Source: an uncultured bacterium (lineage in GTDB: Bacteria; Bacillota; Clostridia; Lachnospirales; Lachnospiraceae). Taken from it: a stretch of 35,414 nt of DNA. The notes beneath the pieces are model-generated. The model made no database searches and was not told the origin of the DNA. It worked only from the letters and a program-made list of their open reading frames with translations. Position 1 is the first letter of the stretch. Each line of letters begins with the position of its first letter. Made by a program: the position numbers and the translations under genes. Shown one piece after another: positions 1,152 to 30,589 of this stretch. The stretch lies in NCBI GenBank assembly GCA_945828315.1, contig CALZQA010000021.1, positions 1 through 35,414 on the forward strand. Reading direction: 5' to 3'.

Positions 1152-2381
1152 ATGGCACAAAGCAGAAAGGACTCCCGTGGCTATGCGCTCAGGACGGGAG
1201 AGAGCCAAAGAGCAGACGGAAGATATTCATACTCTTATACGGATCACAATAGTAAGAGGCACACCGTCTATGGCAAGGATCTGGTCGAACTGAGGAAGAA
1301 GGAGCAGAAGATCAGACGCGATCTGGAGGATGGACTGGATCCCCAGAGAGCAGAGCGTATTACAGTCAACGATGTATTTGATTCGTACATCAAACAGAAA
1401 TACGACCTGAAACCGACGACCAGGGTGAATTACATTTACACCTATGATCACTTCATCAGGGAGACCTTCGGGAAAAGGAAACTGTCAAAGGTTCGTTATA
1501 CGGATGTGAAGGAATTTTACTATTCCCTTATCGTTGAGCAGGGATTATCTCCCGCCACAGTTGATAACGTACATACACAGCTTCATCCGGTATTTACGAT
1601 GGCAGTTCGTAACGGACTCATTCGTACCAATCCGGCATCCGGGGTTCTCGGTGAGATCAAGAAGAGTCATGTGTGGGTAAAGACCAAGCGTAAAGCTTTG
1701 ACGGTACCGGAGCAGAAGGCATTCATGAATTATCTGTATGCCAATCATCAGTACCAGGGCTGGAAGCCTATCATCACAGTCTTGATCGGAACGGGAATGA
1801 GAATCGGTGAATGTCTGGGCCTGAGATGGCAGGATCTCGACTTTGAGAATCGTATCATTGACATCAATCACAATCTGGTGCACCGTAGAGTAGATGAGGA
1901 AGGTGGAAACCTTCATATCAATACTCCGAAGACAGAAGCCGGTTGTAGGAAGATCCCGATGATCAGTGAGGTATACGAGGCATTTCTCGAAGAATATCAG
2001 CTCCAGCAGATCACGGGTTTCTGCACGCAGGAGATTGATGGATATTCAGGATTCGTATTTACAAGCTCGGGAGGAACGGTTACTATACCTTCTGAAGTGA
2101 ATCGTGCGATTCATAACATCACGGCAGAGTATAACGAAGAAGAAACTGCCAGAGCGAAGAAAGAAAAGAGAGAGCCTTTTCTCCTTCCGGACTTCTCCGC
2201 TCACCATCTTGGACATACTTTCTGTACCAGACTTTGTGAGAACGAAACGAATCTCAAGGTCATTCAGACGGTGATGGGACACAAGGACATCCAGACGACG
2301 ATGGATATCTATGCAGACTGCACCGAGGAGAAGAAGCAGGAAGTGATCAAGAAGATGGAAGATAAGATTTTTGTGATTTAA
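1152..2381 (+). CDS. int: Tn916-type tyrosine integrase with altered active site
   Basis: A 409-residue site-specific recombinase that would integrate and excise the element. Residues 1-65 form the arm-binding domain (GYALRTGESQRADGRYSYSYTD), 70-165 the core-binding SAM-like domain, and 180-400 the catalytic domain. Visible catalytic positions are R217 (GTGMRIGE), K260 (TPKTEAG), H351, H377 (MGHKD) and Y387 (TMDIYAD). The second arginine of the HxxR box is absent: the protein reads HHLGHTFCTR, with G354 (codon GGA, 2211-2213) where the family has arginine. The rest of the gene is intact and full length. AGGAGG (1139-1144) supports the start. The missing arginine could mean an inactive integrase, a tolerated variant or a sequencing error. 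Confidence 0.93.
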   Translation: MAQSRKDSRGYALRTGESQRADGRYSYSYTDHNSKRHTVYGKDLVELRKKEQKIRRDLEDGLDPQRAERITVNDVFDSYIKQKYDLKPTTRVNYIYTYDHFIRETFGKRKLSKVRYTDVKEFYYSLIVEQGLSPATVDNVHTQLHPVFTMAVRNGLIRTNPASGVLGEIKKSHVWVKTKRKALTVPEQKAFMNYLYANHQYQGWKPIITVLIGTGMRIGECLGLRWQDLDFENRIIDINHNLVHRRVDEEGGNLHINTPKTEAGCRKIPMISEVYEAFLEEYQLQQITGFCTQEIDGYSGFVFTSSGGTVTIPSEVNRAIHNITAEYNEEETARAKKEKREPFLLPDFSAHHLGHTFCTRLCENETNLKVIQTVMGHKDIQTTMDIYADCTEEKKQEVIKKMEDKIFVI

Positions 2382-2755
2382 AAGTGCCTGTTAAAGCAGT
2401 GCCTTTTCTCACAAATTAAACTTTACGTCTTAATCCAACGACTGACCGAAAAATGAAAAGTGATGTATCCAGTACCACACGCTAAGACATTAGCACGGAA
2501 CAGGACGGCAATCCTCAAAGACCCTGAAATGCATTTGGACGGAGCCAAGGGGACAAAGACGGAATAGGACGTAAAAACTGACCAATCCAATCCCGACGAT
2601 GAAGAGTTTGGATAAATAAATCCAGTATTTATGCGGGTTTGCGTGGCATGATAAAATTAAGTTGCCGAAAGGAGTAGGTCCTTTCCCATCTCTTGACGGA
2701 CACCCCCACTAAGGAGCGGTATGGCGGTGCTCTGGCCCAGATTTTTTGAACACAA
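2382..2755. other. Gene-free region next to the integrase; possible attachment region
   Basis: No coding frame or RNA gene is recognisable in this part of the 599-base gap between the integrase and the amidotransferase gene. It contains GGACG pentamers at 2503, 2537 and 2567 (others at 2808 and 2921), and the 10-mer CATTTGGACG at 2532-2541, repeated at 2803-2812. A perfect 7-bp hairpin, GAAAGGA/TCCTTTC, lies at 2667-2685. In Tn916-like elements the attachment site and integrase arm sites lie just outside int, so this is where attR/attL would be expected. No second att copy is available in the window to prove it. Confidence 0.4.
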
Positions 2756-2812
2756 TGGCCGTGAAGTGATTCACGGTCATTATTATTTTAGGGGTTCCTT
2801 TTCATTTGGACG
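2532..2812 (+). repeat. 10-bp direct repeat CATTTGGACG flanking 261 bases
   Basis: Identical 10-mers at 2532-2541 and 2803-2812, in the same orientation, lie between the integrase gene and the first chromosomal-type gene. Three further GGACG pentamers on the same strand fall within 430 bases. They could be integrase arm-binding direct repeats or the scar of an insertion. This is a sequence observation; the role is unproven. Confidence 0.4.
2756..2791 (+). terminator. Rho-independent terminator downstream of the integrase region
   Basis: A 10-bp stem (arms 2756-2765 and 2770-2779, one G-T wobble) with a GTGA loop is followed by TTATTATTTTA. It would stop transcription from the element before the amidotransferase promoter at 2884. 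Confidence 0.7.
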
Positions 2813-2883
2813 TTGAAAGGAGCAATTGATATATTTATGCAATGCTTTGCAACATTATTCAAAAAAATTGTATATTCTACCAG

Positions 2884-2912
2884 TTGCAACAAAAGTAAGA
2901 ATCAAGTATAAT
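2884..2912 (+). promoter_or_regulatory. Sigma-A promoter of the amidotransferase/amino-acid transporter operon
   Basis: TTGCAA (2884-2889), a 17-base spacer and a perfect TATAAT (2907-2912). Transcription would begin near 2919, a few bases before the leader hairpin at 2925-2952. It is the only clear promoter upstream of 2981 and probably also serves 3732-6676, because gaps between those genes are short. Confidence 0.75.
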
Positions 2913-2924
2913 GTTGTACTGGAC

Positions 2925-2961
2925 GAGGTTGTCTGTGAAGGCGGGCAACCTCTTTATTTTA
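2925..2961 (+). promoter_or_regulatory. Terminator-like 5' leader hairpin
   Basis: GAGGTTG (2925-2931) pairs with CAACCTC (2946-2952), followed by TTTATTTTA. The loop contains GTGAAGGCG. The hairpin lies right at the predicted transcript start and ahead of the ribosome binding site AGAGGTGAG, so it could act as an attenuator or as a 5' stabilising structure. The same arrangement precedes oppA (12472-12524) and a decayed gene on the minus strand (8919-8959). Confidence 0.55.
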
Positions 2962-2980
2962 CTTTCAGAGGTGAGAATGT

Positions 2981-3682
2981 ATGCGACCTGTCATAGGTTT
3001 GATCCCTTTATTTGATGAAGACAAAGAAAGCTATTGGATGCTTCCCGGATATATGAAGGTTTTGGAAGCGTGTGGCGCACTTCCGATCATGCTCCCACTT
3101 ACAGATGATGAAGAGGAGCTGACTCAGAGTGTGGAAATGTGTGACGGACTGCTCCTGACAGGAGGACATGATGTGGATCCGATGCTGTATCACGAACAGC
3201 CGAAAGATACCTGTGGTGTCCCGTGCAGGGAACGCGACCGTATGGAGAGCCGGCTGCTGGGGATGGCACTGAAAAAAGATCTGCCTGTGTTAGGCATCTG
3301 CAGGGGGATCCAATTTATGAACGCATATCTTGGCGGAAGCCTGTATCAGGATCTGCCCACGGAGCATGGAGATCGGGTAGAGCATCATATGTCACCGCCG
3401 TACGACAGAGAAGCGCATAAAGTAACGGTACTTGCAAATACCGTATTAGCTGGTATACTGGGAGAAGGAGAACTGCCGGTGAACAGTTATCATCATCAGG
3501 CAGTAAAGAAAACAGCCCCGGGAGTAACCACAATGGCTGTATCGGAAGATGGTCTTGTGGAGGCAATTTCCGTAGACGGGCAGAAATTTGCAGTAGGGAT
3601 CCAGTGGCATCCGGAGTTCTCTTATGAGAGCGATGCCGCCAGTTTAAAATTGGTTCAGGCTTTTGTGGACGCTTGCAGATAG
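2981..3682 (+). CDS. Class I glutamine amidotransferase, peptidase C26 (gamma-glutamyl-GABA hydrolase-like)
   Basis: A 233-residue cytoplasmic hydrolase of the PuuD-like C26 family, which cleaves gamma-glutamyl amide bonds such as that of gamma-glutamyl-GABA and releases glutamate. The oxyanion/glycine strand is LLLTGGHDVDP (58-67). The nucleophile elbow is GICRGIQ with C107, and the catalytic H210-E212 pair sits in QWHPEFS. Full length for the family, with no synthase domain. The start follows AGAGGTGAG after a promoter and leader hairpin. It lies 49 bases upstream of the amino-acid-binding lipoprotein gene, suggesting joint expression and a role in using imported gamma-glutamyl compounds or glutamine. 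Substrate specificity cannot be read from sequence. Confidence 0.9.
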   Translation: MRPVIGLIPLFDEDKESYWMLPGYMKVLEACGALPIMLPLTDDEEELTQSVEMCDGLLLTGGHDVDPMLYHEQPKDTCGVPCRERDRMESRLLGMALKKDLPVLGICRGIQFMNAYLGGSLYQDLPTEHGDRVEHHMSPPYDREAHKVTVLANTVLAGILGEGELPVNSYHHQAVKKTAPGVTTMAVSEDGLVEAISVDGQKFAVGIQWHPEFSYESDAASLKLVQAFVDACR

Positions 3683-26836: not shown

Positions 26837-27817
26837 TTATTTTGTCCTCTTTTGCAGGCGAATATCCGCGCCTGTGAGCTTTAACAGCGTATAATTGCTG
26901 ATAATGCGTGAAAAATTGCGCTCTGAATAGGTATCAAAGAGCTTGTCCAGATCCAGATTGCTGGAAATGATCGTTGATCTTTTCCGAAGCAGACGCTCGT
27001 TCAGGCACAAAAACAGTTGCGAGACAGAAAAACTGTTCGTAAGCTCTGTACCCAGATCATCGATGATCAGCAGATCGCAGGTGAACAGATCGTTTTCCTG
27101 CTGCTTTGCATCCGCGTCCTGATGAAATTTGCTCTTCTCTAATATATTAAATAACTGGAAAGATGTAAAGTATAAAACAGAATGACCGCTGTCCATCAAC
27201 GCCTTTGCCACGCAATTAGACAAAAATGTCTTGCCGACACCAGTGGAGCCGTAAAAGAACAGGTTGTCAAATGAGTGGTCAAACTGCTCGACGAAGGAAT
27301 GACAGGCGTTTACCGCCAATTTTGCATTGTCGAGCGGACTGCGTCCGGTAGATGGATCTATGGGTGTTTCAGAATAATAATCAAAAGTCAATGTATCAAA
27401 ATTTTCGGATTCCAAGATCAATTTGATGTTGGATTGCGTATAAATTAAGTCAATGGCTGCCTGCCGGAAGCAGTGGCAGCGCCGGTTCTCAATGTAACCG
27501 GTATCCTGACAGTCGGGACATTCGTAGACCGGCATCAGATCATCAGGGGAAAATCCTGCCTGAGCTAAAAGTGTGGTACGTTTTTTGCGCGCCTTGGCAA
27601 GCTGGTCTTTCAGTGTATTCAGAGCATTTTCATCGCCCTCCAGAAGCAGGCGTGCCTGTCGGACGCTAAAGGAAGCAATCTGATCCTCCAGCTCCTTTAA
27701 GCCGGGAACTGCAGCATAAATATCTGCTTTTTTCTTTTCCAGATGTAGTCTGGCGTTTCGCTGTTTTGTCTCGTAAGACCGCATGATCTGGTCATACTGA
27801 CTGTTAGTTAGTGCCAT
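26837..27817 (-). CDS. dnaI: DnaC/DnaI-type replicative helicase loader
   Basis: A 326-residue AAA+ ATPase that loads DnaB helicase at origins and restart forks. The N-terminal half has a coiled region and a zinc-binding motif (YECPDCQDTGYIENRRCHCF, Cys residues in C-x2-C and C-x-C order, about 106-125), typical of DnaI-like loaders. The AAA+ core has Walker A YGSTGVGKTFLSNCVA, Walker B LLIIDDLGTE and sensor/arginine region NERLLRKRSTIISSNLDLDKL...SERNFSRI. The start ATG (27815-27817) overlaps the end of dnaD by 14 bases, so the two are made together. The symbol dnaI is chosen by analogy with Bacillus; dnaC is the alternative name. Confidence 0.9.
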   Translation of the reverse strand: MALTNSQYDQIMRSYETKQRNARLHLEKKKADIYAAVPGLKELEDQIASFSVRQARLLLEGDENALNTLKDQLAKARKKRTTLLAQAGFSPDDLMPVYECPDCQDTGYIENRRCHCFRQAAIDLIYTQSNIKLILESENFDTLTFDYYSETPIDPSTGRSPLDNAKLAVNACHSFVEQFDHSFDNLFFYGSTGVGKTFLSNCVAKALMDSGHSVLYFTSFQLFNILEKSKFHQDADAKQQENDLFTCDLLIIDDLGTELTNSFSVSQLFLCLNERLLRKRSTIISSNLDLDKLFDTYSERNFSRIISNYTLLKLTGADIRLQKRTK

Positions 27818-28850
27818 ATTTTAACAATTCCTTTTCTAATTGGCTTGTATCGTAGGAACGCTGGGGAAAATCATTAAAGCGATTTTTCTTTGTATTTGCG
27901 TCGGAGCGTTTTGACGCGGTGGCTGCTTTTTCCTGGTGCAGAGCATCCAGTGCCTGAATATCCTGAAGGGAAGATACTTTGTTCTTCTTCCAGTTCTTTA
28001 AGATCGAGTCCGCATACTCAAAGCTGACCTGATGGATGGAACGGATCGTGCGCTCGCAGGCGGCTGAGATGATCTCTGTGCCAAAGCCGTATTCCTTCTG
28101 CCAGGTATTTATGTATTCCTTTTCATAAGGAACAAAGTCCCGTCCCTGAATGCCAAAAGCTTTTTTGATCGCTGTGTGCAGCTCGCTGTGGCGGCTGGCT
28201 TCCTCCTTGGCGGCAGACACGGTCGAGATGCCTGCCTTTGCCCAGGAAAGAGCGACCTTTTCCATATAATGTACACTCTTGTGTCCCTTTGCCACACATG
28301 ATTCTATCAGATAGTCGATCAGATCGCCAGAAAAATTTAAAGATTCCTTCCAATAAAGGATTGCATTCATCTCCGTGGCGTTCAGCGGATGTCCCAGATA
28401 GTGCTCCGCAACAAACAGAAGCTCTTTGATATCCGCATCCTCCTTCAGACGGCGCAGTTCTGCAGCACTGTAGTTTTCCCGGGGCGGAACATCGGCGGCG
28501 GCAGCCTTTTTCGTCTGCATGGACACTGCAGGGATCTGCGGGCTGGGTGCGCTTGCCACATCCAGAAAACAGATGCCGGTCAGCTCTTTGTTCTCATCAA
28601 ACTCCAGACGCAGTAAATGCATTTTTTCCCAATATTTTAGTGCTCGGATAATATCTTTTTCCGTGTGGTCGAACTTGTCCGCAACGTCAGAAATCGAAAA
28701 AGACATGGTGGGGTCGTTCATGCACCGGAGCAGATAAAGATATACCTTCACGTATTCTCCGTTGGCATGCACCATATATGCATCAATAAAATAGTTGGGT
28801 ACTACGGTTCTTTGAACTTCGCTGTCTCTATGTAAAGTAATATCTGCCAT
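27804..28850 (-). CDS. dnaD: DnaD-family primosome protein
   Basis: A 348-residue replication initiation/restart protein that remodels DNA and recruits the helicase loader. The N-terminal winged-helix part (FIDAYMVHANGEYVKVYLYLLRCMNDPTMSFSISDVADKFDHTEKDIIRALKYWEKMHLLRLEFDE) is followed by the C-terminal DnaB_2/DDBH2 repeats (LLFVAEHYLGHPLNATEMNAILYWKESLNFSGDLIDYLIESCVAKGHKSVHYMEKVALSWAKAGI, and a second copy near 225-300). A longer frame to 28985 crosses the predicted promoter, so the ATG at 28850 behind AGAGGAG is chosen. It is first in the dnaD-dnaI-prs unit; five DnaA boxes lie upstream. Confidence 0.88.
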   Translation of the reverse strand: MADITLHRDSEVQRTVVPNYFIDAYMVHANGEYVKVYLYLLRCMNDPTMSFSISDVADKFDHTEKDIIRALKYWEKMHLLRLEFDENKELTGICFLDVASAPSPQIPAVSMQTKKAAAADVPPRENYSAAELRRLKEDADIKELLFVAEHYLGHPLNATEMNAILYWKESLNFSGDLIDYLIESCVAKGHKSVHYMEKVALSWAKAGISTVSAAKEEASRHSELHTAIKKAFGIQGRDFVPYEKEYINTWQKEYGFGTEIISAACERTIRSIHQVSFEYADSILKNWKKNKVSSLQDIQALDALHQEKAATASKRSDANTKKNRFNDFPQRSYDTSQLEKELLKYGTN

Positions 28851-28904: not shown

Positions 28905-28933
28905 ATTATAGCACATAAAATTGAAAAAGAGAA
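28905..28933 (-). promoter_or_regulatory. Extended -10 promoter of dnaD
   Basis: On the minus strand TGCTATAAT (TATAAT at plus 28905-28910). The -35 position (plus 28928-28933) is weak and borders the repeated AAGCCTTGA sequences at 28932-28971, so activation or repression by a bound protein is plausible. Confidence 0.6.
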
Positions 28934-28975
28934 GCCTTGATTTTTGCGCAAAGCCTTGAAAATCAAGGCTTTGCG
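28932..28975. repeat. Large palindrome with an extra half-site near the dnaD promoter
   Basis: Arms of 13 bp (28947-28959 and 28963-28975) are separated by AAA and pair perfectly. A third copy of the half-site AAGCCTTGA lies at 28932-28940, so two alternative hairpins can form. On the minus strand it could terminate murC transcription, although no T-run follows; as DNA it is an operator candidate beside the dnaD promoter. Confidence 0.6.
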
Positions 28976-28990
28976 GGTTTGACAAAAAAA

Positions 28991-29151
28991 TGTGGATAAG
29001 TGGATAATTTTTTATGTAAACTTTAGGCCCGGTGTCATAAACCCCATACTTTCAGCATATTCTTTGAAAGAGAAGGACATGTTATGTAAATAAAATATCC
29101 ACAACGGGAGGGGATAACTTTTCAACCTCTCATTGTGGATAATGTGGATAA
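28991..29151. promoter_or_regulatory. Cluster of DnaA boxes
   Basis: Perfect DnaA boxes (TGTGGATAA, reverse of TTATCCACA) lie at 28991-28999, 29134-29142 and 29143-29151, the last two directly abutting. One-mismatch boxes lie at 28999-29007 (AGTGGATAA) and 29095-29103 (ATATCCACA, opposite orientation). AT-rich stretches separate them. The cluster fills the gap between murC and dnaD. DnaA probably binds here, to regulate the primosome genes or titrate DnaA; dnaA-dnaN are not adjacent, so this is unlikely to be the main origin. Confidence 0.75.
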
Positions 29152-29152
29152 C

Positions 29153-30589
29153 TTATTGCCCGAGAAGATGTTCGCCCACTTCCAGAATGTTTCCGGCGCC
29201 CATAGTTATTAACAGGTCACCGTCGATACAATTTTTTAATAAAAATTTTTCGATGCCGTCAAATGTTTCGGCAGTAGGGATGTAGTAGGCATCTGTGCCT
29301 CTGGCTTTCAGGCGGTCTAAAATGTCTTTTGCGCTGATGCCCAGGTCATCTGTCTCGCGGGCGGCATAGATATCTGCCAGCACGACCATGTCCGCAAGGG
29401 ATAAAGCATCTGCGAAGTCATCCAGAAACGCTTTGGTGCGGGAGTAGGTGTGGGACTGGAACACGCAGACGATACGGGAGTGCGGATAGTTTTTTGCCGC
29501 AGTCAGCGTCGCGCGGATTTCTGTCGGGTGATGCGCGTAATCGTCCACGATGGTGATGCCTTTTGCTTCCTGAAGGGAACTGTCAGCAGCATCCGTGTGA
29601 GGATGAAGCGTCCCTTTGTACTGGAAGCGGCGGTCTGTTCCGGTGAAAGCGGACAGTCCCTCCGCGATGGCCTCCGGAGCAATTCCCATCTGCGCAGCAA
29701 CCGCGTAGGCTGCCAGTGCATTGGAAATGTTATGTTTTCCGGGGACAAGCAGTTTGACGGGTGTCTGCTCTTTGTCAGCGCCATGCACGATAAAAGATGC
29801 GCAGCCAAAATCATTGTAGCTGATATCAGAGGCATAGACATCAAAGGCCTCCTCAAAGCCGTAGGTAATAACTTTAGCGGAAAGCCCTTCTGTCAGCTGC
29901 GCCCGGTCAGGAATCTCGCCGTTTAAGATAATGGCACCATCGTCTGCTGTATTGGCGAGAAAACGGTGGAAGGAATGGCGGATGTCGTCATAATCCTTGA
30001 AAAAGTCCAGATGTTCCGCCTCCACATTCAGGACAACGCTGTATTTCGGATAAAAGTGTAAAAAGCTGTTGGTGTATTCACATGCTTCGGTCACGAAACA
30101 GTCGGAGGAACCGACACGGATGTTGCCGTCGATCGCCTTTAAGATGCCTCCCACAGAGATCGTGGGATCTGCGTGAGCCGCCAGAAGGATGTGGGTGATC
30201 ATGGAGGTTGTGGTAGTCTTTCCGTGGGTGCCGGCGACAGCCACAGAACGGGCATAATTGTTCATCAGCTGTCCCAGAAACTCCGCGCGGGAAAGCAGCG
30301 GCTTGCCGGATGCTTTTGCAGCCACAAACTCGGGGTTGTCCTCGTGGATCGCTGCAGTATAGACGATCACATCGATATCGGGAGTGATATTTTCCGCCTG
30401 CTGGGGATAGGTGACCCTGGCACCAAGAGCAGAAAGCTGCCTGGTGAGGGCGGATTCCCTTGCATCTGATCCGGATACCGTAAAGCCTTCCTTTAATATG
30501 ATCTGCGCAAGACCACTCATGCTGATGCCGCCGATGCCGATAAAGTGCACATGGCAGGGCTGTGAAAAATTAACTGTATACTCATTCAT
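29153..30589 (-). CDS. murC: UDP-N-acetylmuramate--L-alanine ligase
   Basis: A 478-residue Mur ligase adding L-alanine to UDP-MurNAc in cytoplasmic peptidoglycan precursor synthesis. The N-terminal UDP-binding domain has HFIGIGGISMSGLAQIIL. The ATP-binding loop AVAGTHGKTTTTSMI (about 115-129), VTEACEYTNSFLHF and NVEAEHLDFFKD of the central domain, and VDDYAHHPTEIRATL with FQSHTYSRTKAFLDDFA of the C-terminal domain are all present. Length is normal. The promoter is probably the extended -10 TGGTATACT (plus 30634-30642). It is divergent from glgC. The DnaA-box cluster begins at its stop codon. Confidence 0.97.
   Translation of the reverse strand: MNEYTVNFSQPCHVHFIGIGGISMSGLAQIILKEGFTVSGSDARESALTRQLSALGARVTYPQQAENITPDIDVIVYTAAIHEDNPEFVAAKASGKPLLSRAEFLGQLMNNYARSVAVAGTHGKTTTTSMITHILLAAHADPTISVGGILKAIDGNIRVGSSDCFVTEACEYTNSFLHFYPKYSVVLNVEAEHLDFFKDYDDIRHSFHRFLANTADDGAIILNGEIPDRAQLTEGLSAKVITYGFEEAFDVYASDISYNDFGCASFIVHGADKEQTPVKLLVPGKHNISNALAAYAVAAQMGIAPEAIAEGLSAFTGTDRRFQYKGTLHPHTDAADSSLQEAKGITIVDDYAHHPTEIRATLTAAKNYPHSRIVCVFQSHTYSRTKAFLDDFADALSLADMVVLADIYAARETDDLGISAKDILDRLKARGTDAYYIPTAETFDGIEKFLLKNCIDGDLLITMGAGNILEVGEHLLGQ

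Follow-up and report, generated by a model that had tools for sequence, protein, structure and literature searches.

A cluster of DnaA boxes between murC and dnaD

The window analysed here is a stretch of 35,414 nucleotides (positions 1–35,414 of contig CALZQA010000021.1, assembly GCA_945828315.1) from an uncultured member of the Lachnospiraceae. On its minus strand, murC (29153–30589; Pfam Mur ligase domains) is the upstream, co-directional neighbour of a dnaD-like gene (27804–28850; DnaB_2/PF07261, Pfam E 2.4e-40), which encodes 348 aa from an ATG start backed by relatives. The end of dnaD is overlapped by a gene for a dnaI/dnaC-type helicase loader, identified by Pfam as an AAA+, IstB/DnaA-like ATPase (26837–27817). 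Pfam thus bears out the gene calls of the first-pass annotation, which had also described five DnaA boxes in the murC–dnaD gap. All five are present between positions 28991 and 29151, three of them perfect copies of TTATCCACA and two with one mismatch.

Four of the boxes lie on the minus strand. The distal pair begins 2 nt past the murC stop codon with a perfect box at 29143–29151 that is conserved in Lachnospiraceae; it abuts a second perfect box at 29134–29142, which at the same time supplies the 5′ arm of the terminator of murC. The promoter-proximal pair consists of TTATCCACT at 28999–29007, with one mismatch, and a perfect box at 28991–28999 that ends 80 bp before the −10 hexamer of dnaD. 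Abutting boxes had been noted at the outset; this holds for the distal pair, while the two proximal boxes share one base. The remaining one-mismatch sequence, ATATCCACA, is on the plus strand (29095–29103); its most plausible role is to form the 3′ arm of the terminator, which leaves four working boxes, arranged as two pairs. In the reading direction, the murC stop codon is followed by GTTATCCACATTATCCACA, the hairpin, TTTTATTT, about 80 bp, TTATCCACTTATCCACA, an inverted repeat, the promoter (TTCTCT-17-TATAAT, with TGC ahead of the −10) and finally dnaD.

The cluster is far beyond chance. Counting boxes with up to one mismatch, the window holds 19, compared with 9.3 +/- 2.7 in shuffled sequences, none of 100 shuffles reaching 19; five of the 19 fall within the 161 bases of the cluster. 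The draft genome (2.6 Mb) contains 55 perfect boxes, as against 10 copies of the reversed word, and the murC–dnaD gap is the sole place in it with more than two perfect boxes within 1 kb. The expectation given earlier for such a 9-mer, once per 130 kb per strand, needs amending: the figure is about 262 kb per strand, or 131 kb for both strands together.

Conservation in Lachnospiraceae

The dnaD loci compared were sampled from 26 named contigs and from genomes of the same family drawn one per genus. The gene order murC–gap–dnaD is kept in 158 of 159 Lachnospiraceae loci, a count of 158 that takes in the copy in the window itself and a locus that was retrieved two times, leaving about 156 distinct relatives. 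One locus with the site comes from Eubacterium plexicaudatum ASF492 (L014), a laboratory strain that can be cultivated. Together the gaps amount to 47.8 kb and contain 383 perfect boxes, against a mean of 0.75 (maximum 14) for permuted words and six in an equal amount of adjacent murC coding sequence. Nearly all of these boxes (368/383, 96%) read towards dnaD. At least one abutting pair occurs in 132 of the 158 loci and two or more in 86; accordingly, the commonest offset between same-strand neighbours in the gaps is 9 bp (246 cases), followed by 12 bp (40), 8 bp (12) and 11 bp (5). A perfect box is absent from the gap in 17/158 loci, several of which have a very short gap. Searching 79 genomes with the 18-mer double box returned at least 150 matches, versus two for control words; among the 150 matches listed, 80 lie just upstream of dnaD and 70 elsewhere.

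Outside the family the arrangement was not found. In the 26 best-matching loci from other members of the class Clostridia, murC was in no case the neighbour of dnaD, and these 26 loci have one perfect box in total. The site thus appears, by sequence comparison, to belong to the Lachnospiraceae. The first-pass annotation had named conservation among relatives as a check on the cluster; it is passed very strongly, given the 383 perfect boxes over some 157 murC–gap–dnaD loci of the family.

Overlap with the murC terminator

The distal pair runs into the intrinsic terminator hairpin of murC (29096–29141, minus strand; −20.4 kcal/mol, z −4.9), followed by a T-rich tract at 29095–29088. Its 5′ arm is formed by the box at 29134–29142 and its 3′ arm by the opposite-strand sequence at 29095–29103. 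A murC terminator of the same hairpin type is found in 98 of 157 loci. In the part of the stem beyond the box all pair types occur, and 6.39 of 8 positions are paired, as opposed to 3.50 when the arms are swapped between species. Stem, T tract and covariation together mark this element as an intrinsic terminator. One DnaA box doubling as a terminator arm would make it a putative dual-use element, acting in DNA and in RNA. Where the gap is short, relatives are without the terminator and retain the boxes.

Helical phasing between the boxes and the dnaD promoter

The predicted promoter of dnaD-dnaI, which the first-pass annotation had missed, spans 28905–28933 on the minus strand, with a weak −35 (28933–28928), a 17 bp spacer and an extended −10 element, TGCTATAAT, at 28913–28905. 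An aligned logo of 137 relatives shows that the extended −10 (TGnTATAAT) and the weak −35, at 17 bp spacing, are kept ahead of dnaD. In most relatives the boxes end 49–94 bp upstream of the −10, and the −35 and −10 are seldom touched. Consensus DnaA boxes near a promoter, conserved together with promoter and gene, are the sequence hallmarks of a DnaA regulon member, and all are found here.

Distances between the last box and the −10 do not vary continuously. In the 75 loci with a proximal abutting pair they are mostly 48–49, 58–60, 66–71 or 77–80 bp, with almost no loci between these classes. The Rayleigh R is 0.78 at a period of 10–10.25 bp and 0.57 at 9 bp, while box-to-ATG distances of the same 75 loci give R of 0.07–0.18 and no such period. 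The MurC tree yielded 62 independent pairs, 32 of which differ by more than 2 bp in box-to-(−10) distance; in 24 of the 32 the change comes to a multiple of 10, give or take 2 bp (p about 0.001), with the caveat that the distance changes by 9 bp whenever a terminal box is gained or lost and some 9-bp steps may be of this kind. Under a strict filter against gain or loss of whole boxes, the loci still fall at 58, 67–69 and 78–80 bp, in a small set of 19 whose sister pairs show no changes. Distances from pair to pair cluster too, less cleanly than those from box to promoter. Transcriptional control exerted from one face of the helix is the best explanation for this phasing. Since the spacing is phased to the promoter and not to the ATG, it points to such control rather than to plain titration of DnaA or a second origin.

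Several other elements were noticed in this interval. A perfect inverted repeat with 13-bp arms, GCAAAGCCTTGA...TCAAGGCTTTGC, lies between the proximal pair and the promoter (28947–28975, minus strand; fold z −6.0). Its core, CTTGATTTT, is present in 27 of 158 relatives, and its loop appears inverted in one relative (L145). A dispersed repeat was discarded as the source of this element, the core having only two copies in the genome. Two copies of TTTACATAA on the minus strand, at about 29081–29091 (past the terminator) and about 29011–29021 (before the proximal pair), are kept in close relatives. A candidate antisense promoter over the boxes (28979–29008) was set aside, a similar site occurring in only 5 of 138 relatives. 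A scan of the region with Rfam gave sub-threshold chance matches only.

DnaA as the probable binder

TTATCCACA matches the DnaA-box consensus at all nine positions. The DnaA proteins of these genomes retain the recognition segment (PRQ and RDH/KDH, as RDHTT/KDHST). Of ten genomes scanned for PF08299 (DnaA domain IV), nine have DnaA as its sole carrier, and no other domain-IV protein that could serve as binder was found in the ten. From the consensus match, the intact recognition helix and the lack of another domain-IV protein, we infer that the boxes are bound by DnaA.

The window's own draft genome (98% complete, 113 contigs) lacks dnaA, and hence oriC. True loss of dnaA in the lineage was rejected: the gene is present in five of nine congeners and absent in four. 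Because five congeners carry it, the missing gene most likely reflects an assembly or binning gap at oriC. Around dnaA elsewhere in the family there are fewer perfect boxes, in mixed orientations, with close same-strand offsets of 10–12 bp; the 9-bp offset, corresponding to a gap of 0 bp, never occurs among close same-strand boxes around dnaA in Lachnospiraceae. Offsets of 9 and 12 bp are 1.5 bp short or long of a helical turn, respectively, and both would place neighbouring boxes on roughly the same face. Our interpretation is softest at the gap of 0 bp, which is unusual for DnaA and could mean crowding or another binder.

Double boxes at other loci

A second recurrent cluster of double boxes in Lachnospiraceae lies upstream of hpf/raiA, the gene for a ribosome hibernation factor, beside secA or an NlpC/P60 gene (L072, L073, L074, L078, L082–L084 and L086–L088, around position 3000). 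Often a pair is accompanied by a lone box 53 bp away, or two pairs stand 97 bp apart; hpf of the window's genome is without a double box. In L090 and L091 (near 3001–3071), a pair plus a single box lie between an NlpC/P60 gene and a small gene, upstream of the latter, which we take to be DUF1858-like. A further locus, L085 (G105:C133), has 23 perfect DnaA boxes in about 2 kb (1225–3247), possibly the oriC of that genome. Double boxes away from dnaD suggest that the DnaA regulon of the family extends to further genes.

Comparison with known DnaA sites

DnaA of E. coli has a preference for boxes in pairs and regulates replication genes (PMC11317965). The double boxes described there (nrdA, polA, purH, datA, DARS) are likewise same-strand pairs upstream of replication-related genes with DnaA as regulator. 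However, they are separated by 2–3 bp, compared with 0 or −1 bp at murC–dnaD, and usually join one strong and one weak box, whereas the pairs described here consist of two near-perfect ones; nor is a helicase-loader operon among the 16 DnaA-bound regions of E. coli (PMC11317965). It is the 10–12 bp offsets at the oriC of the Lachnospiraceae that resemble the 2–3 bp gaps preferred in E. coli (PMC11317965).

Bacillus subtilis also has clusters away from oriC (sda, ywlC, ywcI, yydA, trmE, gcp), at different genes; they are bound by DnaA, some regulate transcription, and jointly they affect the timing of initiation (PMC4447404, PMC13220808). The top-ranked sites that PMC4447404 names include neither dnaD nor the dnaB-dnaI operon. 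A parallel to the phasing is the incC loop of B. subtilis oriC, where distal and proximal boxes are helically phased (PMC6669920), but its output is unwinding beside DnaA-trios, while the boxes at murC–dnaD face a promoter and have no trios next to them. Caulobacter, as cited in PMC8203912, has a DnaA regulon (dnaB helicase, dnaQ) with predicted boxes upstream of the helicase gene and expression affected by dnaA; there the target is the helicase itself and not DnaD or a loader, in an unrelated lineage and with an unrelated architecture. In the literature searched, which included few subscription papers, no description of DnaA boxes at dnaD/murC in Lachnospiraceae was found. DnaA regulons and box clusters are thus known as such; the conserved site, the abutting geometry and the terminator overlap were not encountered in that literature.

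A proposed model for control of dnaD-dnaI

The murC–dnaD site is real and conserved, and probably functional. We consider it likely, on comparative grounds, that it is a DnaA-responsive control region of the dnaD-dnaI operon throughout the Lachnospiraceae, most likely an activating one. DnaA would bind two head-to-tail double boxes reading towards dnaD, the distal one directly past murC and partly inside its terminator, the proximal one about 50–90 bp upstream of the dnaD −10 (80 bp in the window). Bound DnaA would then activate the dnaD promoter, either by itself or through an oligomer or loop that connects the two pairs, and the amount of helicase loader available would track how much free DnaA there is, or how active it is. 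Activation is preferred because the proximal pair keeps to one helix face and spares the −35 and −10; if DnaA does control the operon, we give activation a little better than an even chance and repression an appreciably smaller one. Regulation of the loader genes by DnaA, one of the options put forward in the first-pass annotation, is the one that conservation, fixed orientation and phasing to the dnaD promoter best support.

Taken as a whole, the opposite sign of control is an unlikely but serious contender: DnaA would bind and repress the loader operon, the two pairs forming a promoter-blocking loop or filament, as for the repressed dnaA and other operons of B. subtilis. Most of the direct B. 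subtilis targets listed in PMC4447404 are indeed repressed, helically phased looping by DnaA has been proposed at incC (PMC6669920), and the clustering of pair-to-pair distances would suit a loop. The boxes, however, occupy an activator-like position relative to the −10 and rarely touch the promoter elements.

That the cluster is a titration or reset site, akin to datA or to the B. subtilis DnaA-box clusters, rather than a promoter switch, seems to us decidedly improbable. It is a cluster outside oriC, and in eight relatives it shares a contig with dnaA at a distance of 100–670 kb, which makes it oriC-proximal; moreover, deletion of six clusters in B. subtilis advances initiation (PMC13220808). 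Yet it holds only 3 of the 55 perfect boxes in the genome, and titration needs neither a fixed gene neighbour nor the fixed orientation and helical phasing, which it leaves unexplained. Titration, also raised at the outset, may be a side effect of DnaA binding here.

A different protein could recognise the abutting direct repeat TTATCCACA-TTATCCACA, the likeness to a DnaA box reflecting that other factor. Such a binder would fit the absence of the 0 bp gap around dnaA in the same family and the presence of the same double box elsewhere, for instance ahead of hpf. We regard it as highly doubtful in view of the exact 9/9 consensus and the failure to find another protein with the DnaA DNA-binding domain in ten genomes.

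A secondary replication origin was thought less likely from the start, and the comparison lends it no support. Perfect boxes are dense and helicase loader genes adjoin them, but DnaA-trio-like runs in the gaps are at shuffle level, with none in the window's own gap, and the box geometry is unlike that of the family's oriC. In addition, relatives have dnaA, with flanking boxes of its own, elsewhere: in the eight with long assemblies it shares a contig with dnaD but is about 100–670 kb away. This reading is very improbable indeed. Finally, chance or a by-product of the murC terminator can be dismissed: one distal box does form the terminator stem, but three of the five sites (box 1 and both proximal boxes) lie outside it and are left unexplained, short-gap relatives keep their boxes without a terminator, and conservation in the family rules it out.

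Returning to DnaA as activator of dnaD-dnaI, we tentatively postulate, at somewhat less than even confidence, a family-wide feedback in which DnaA, bound to an abutting double box that lies partly on a terminator, sets the supply of DnaD-DnaI from phased upstream sites, the same box at hpf and the DUF1858-like gene representing an undescribed regulon and binding mode. With regard to the tie between initiation and DnaA activity in clostridia, a 2020 paper states that how C. difficile regulates DnaA activity is unknown (PMC7561715). A DnaA site kept at the loader operon by almost all sampled genera of a major gut family would offer a concrete, testable link from the initiator to the step of initiation that comes next. 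If true, it would also add to the known box geometries and provide a case of a DnaA box serving at the same time as one arm of a terminator.
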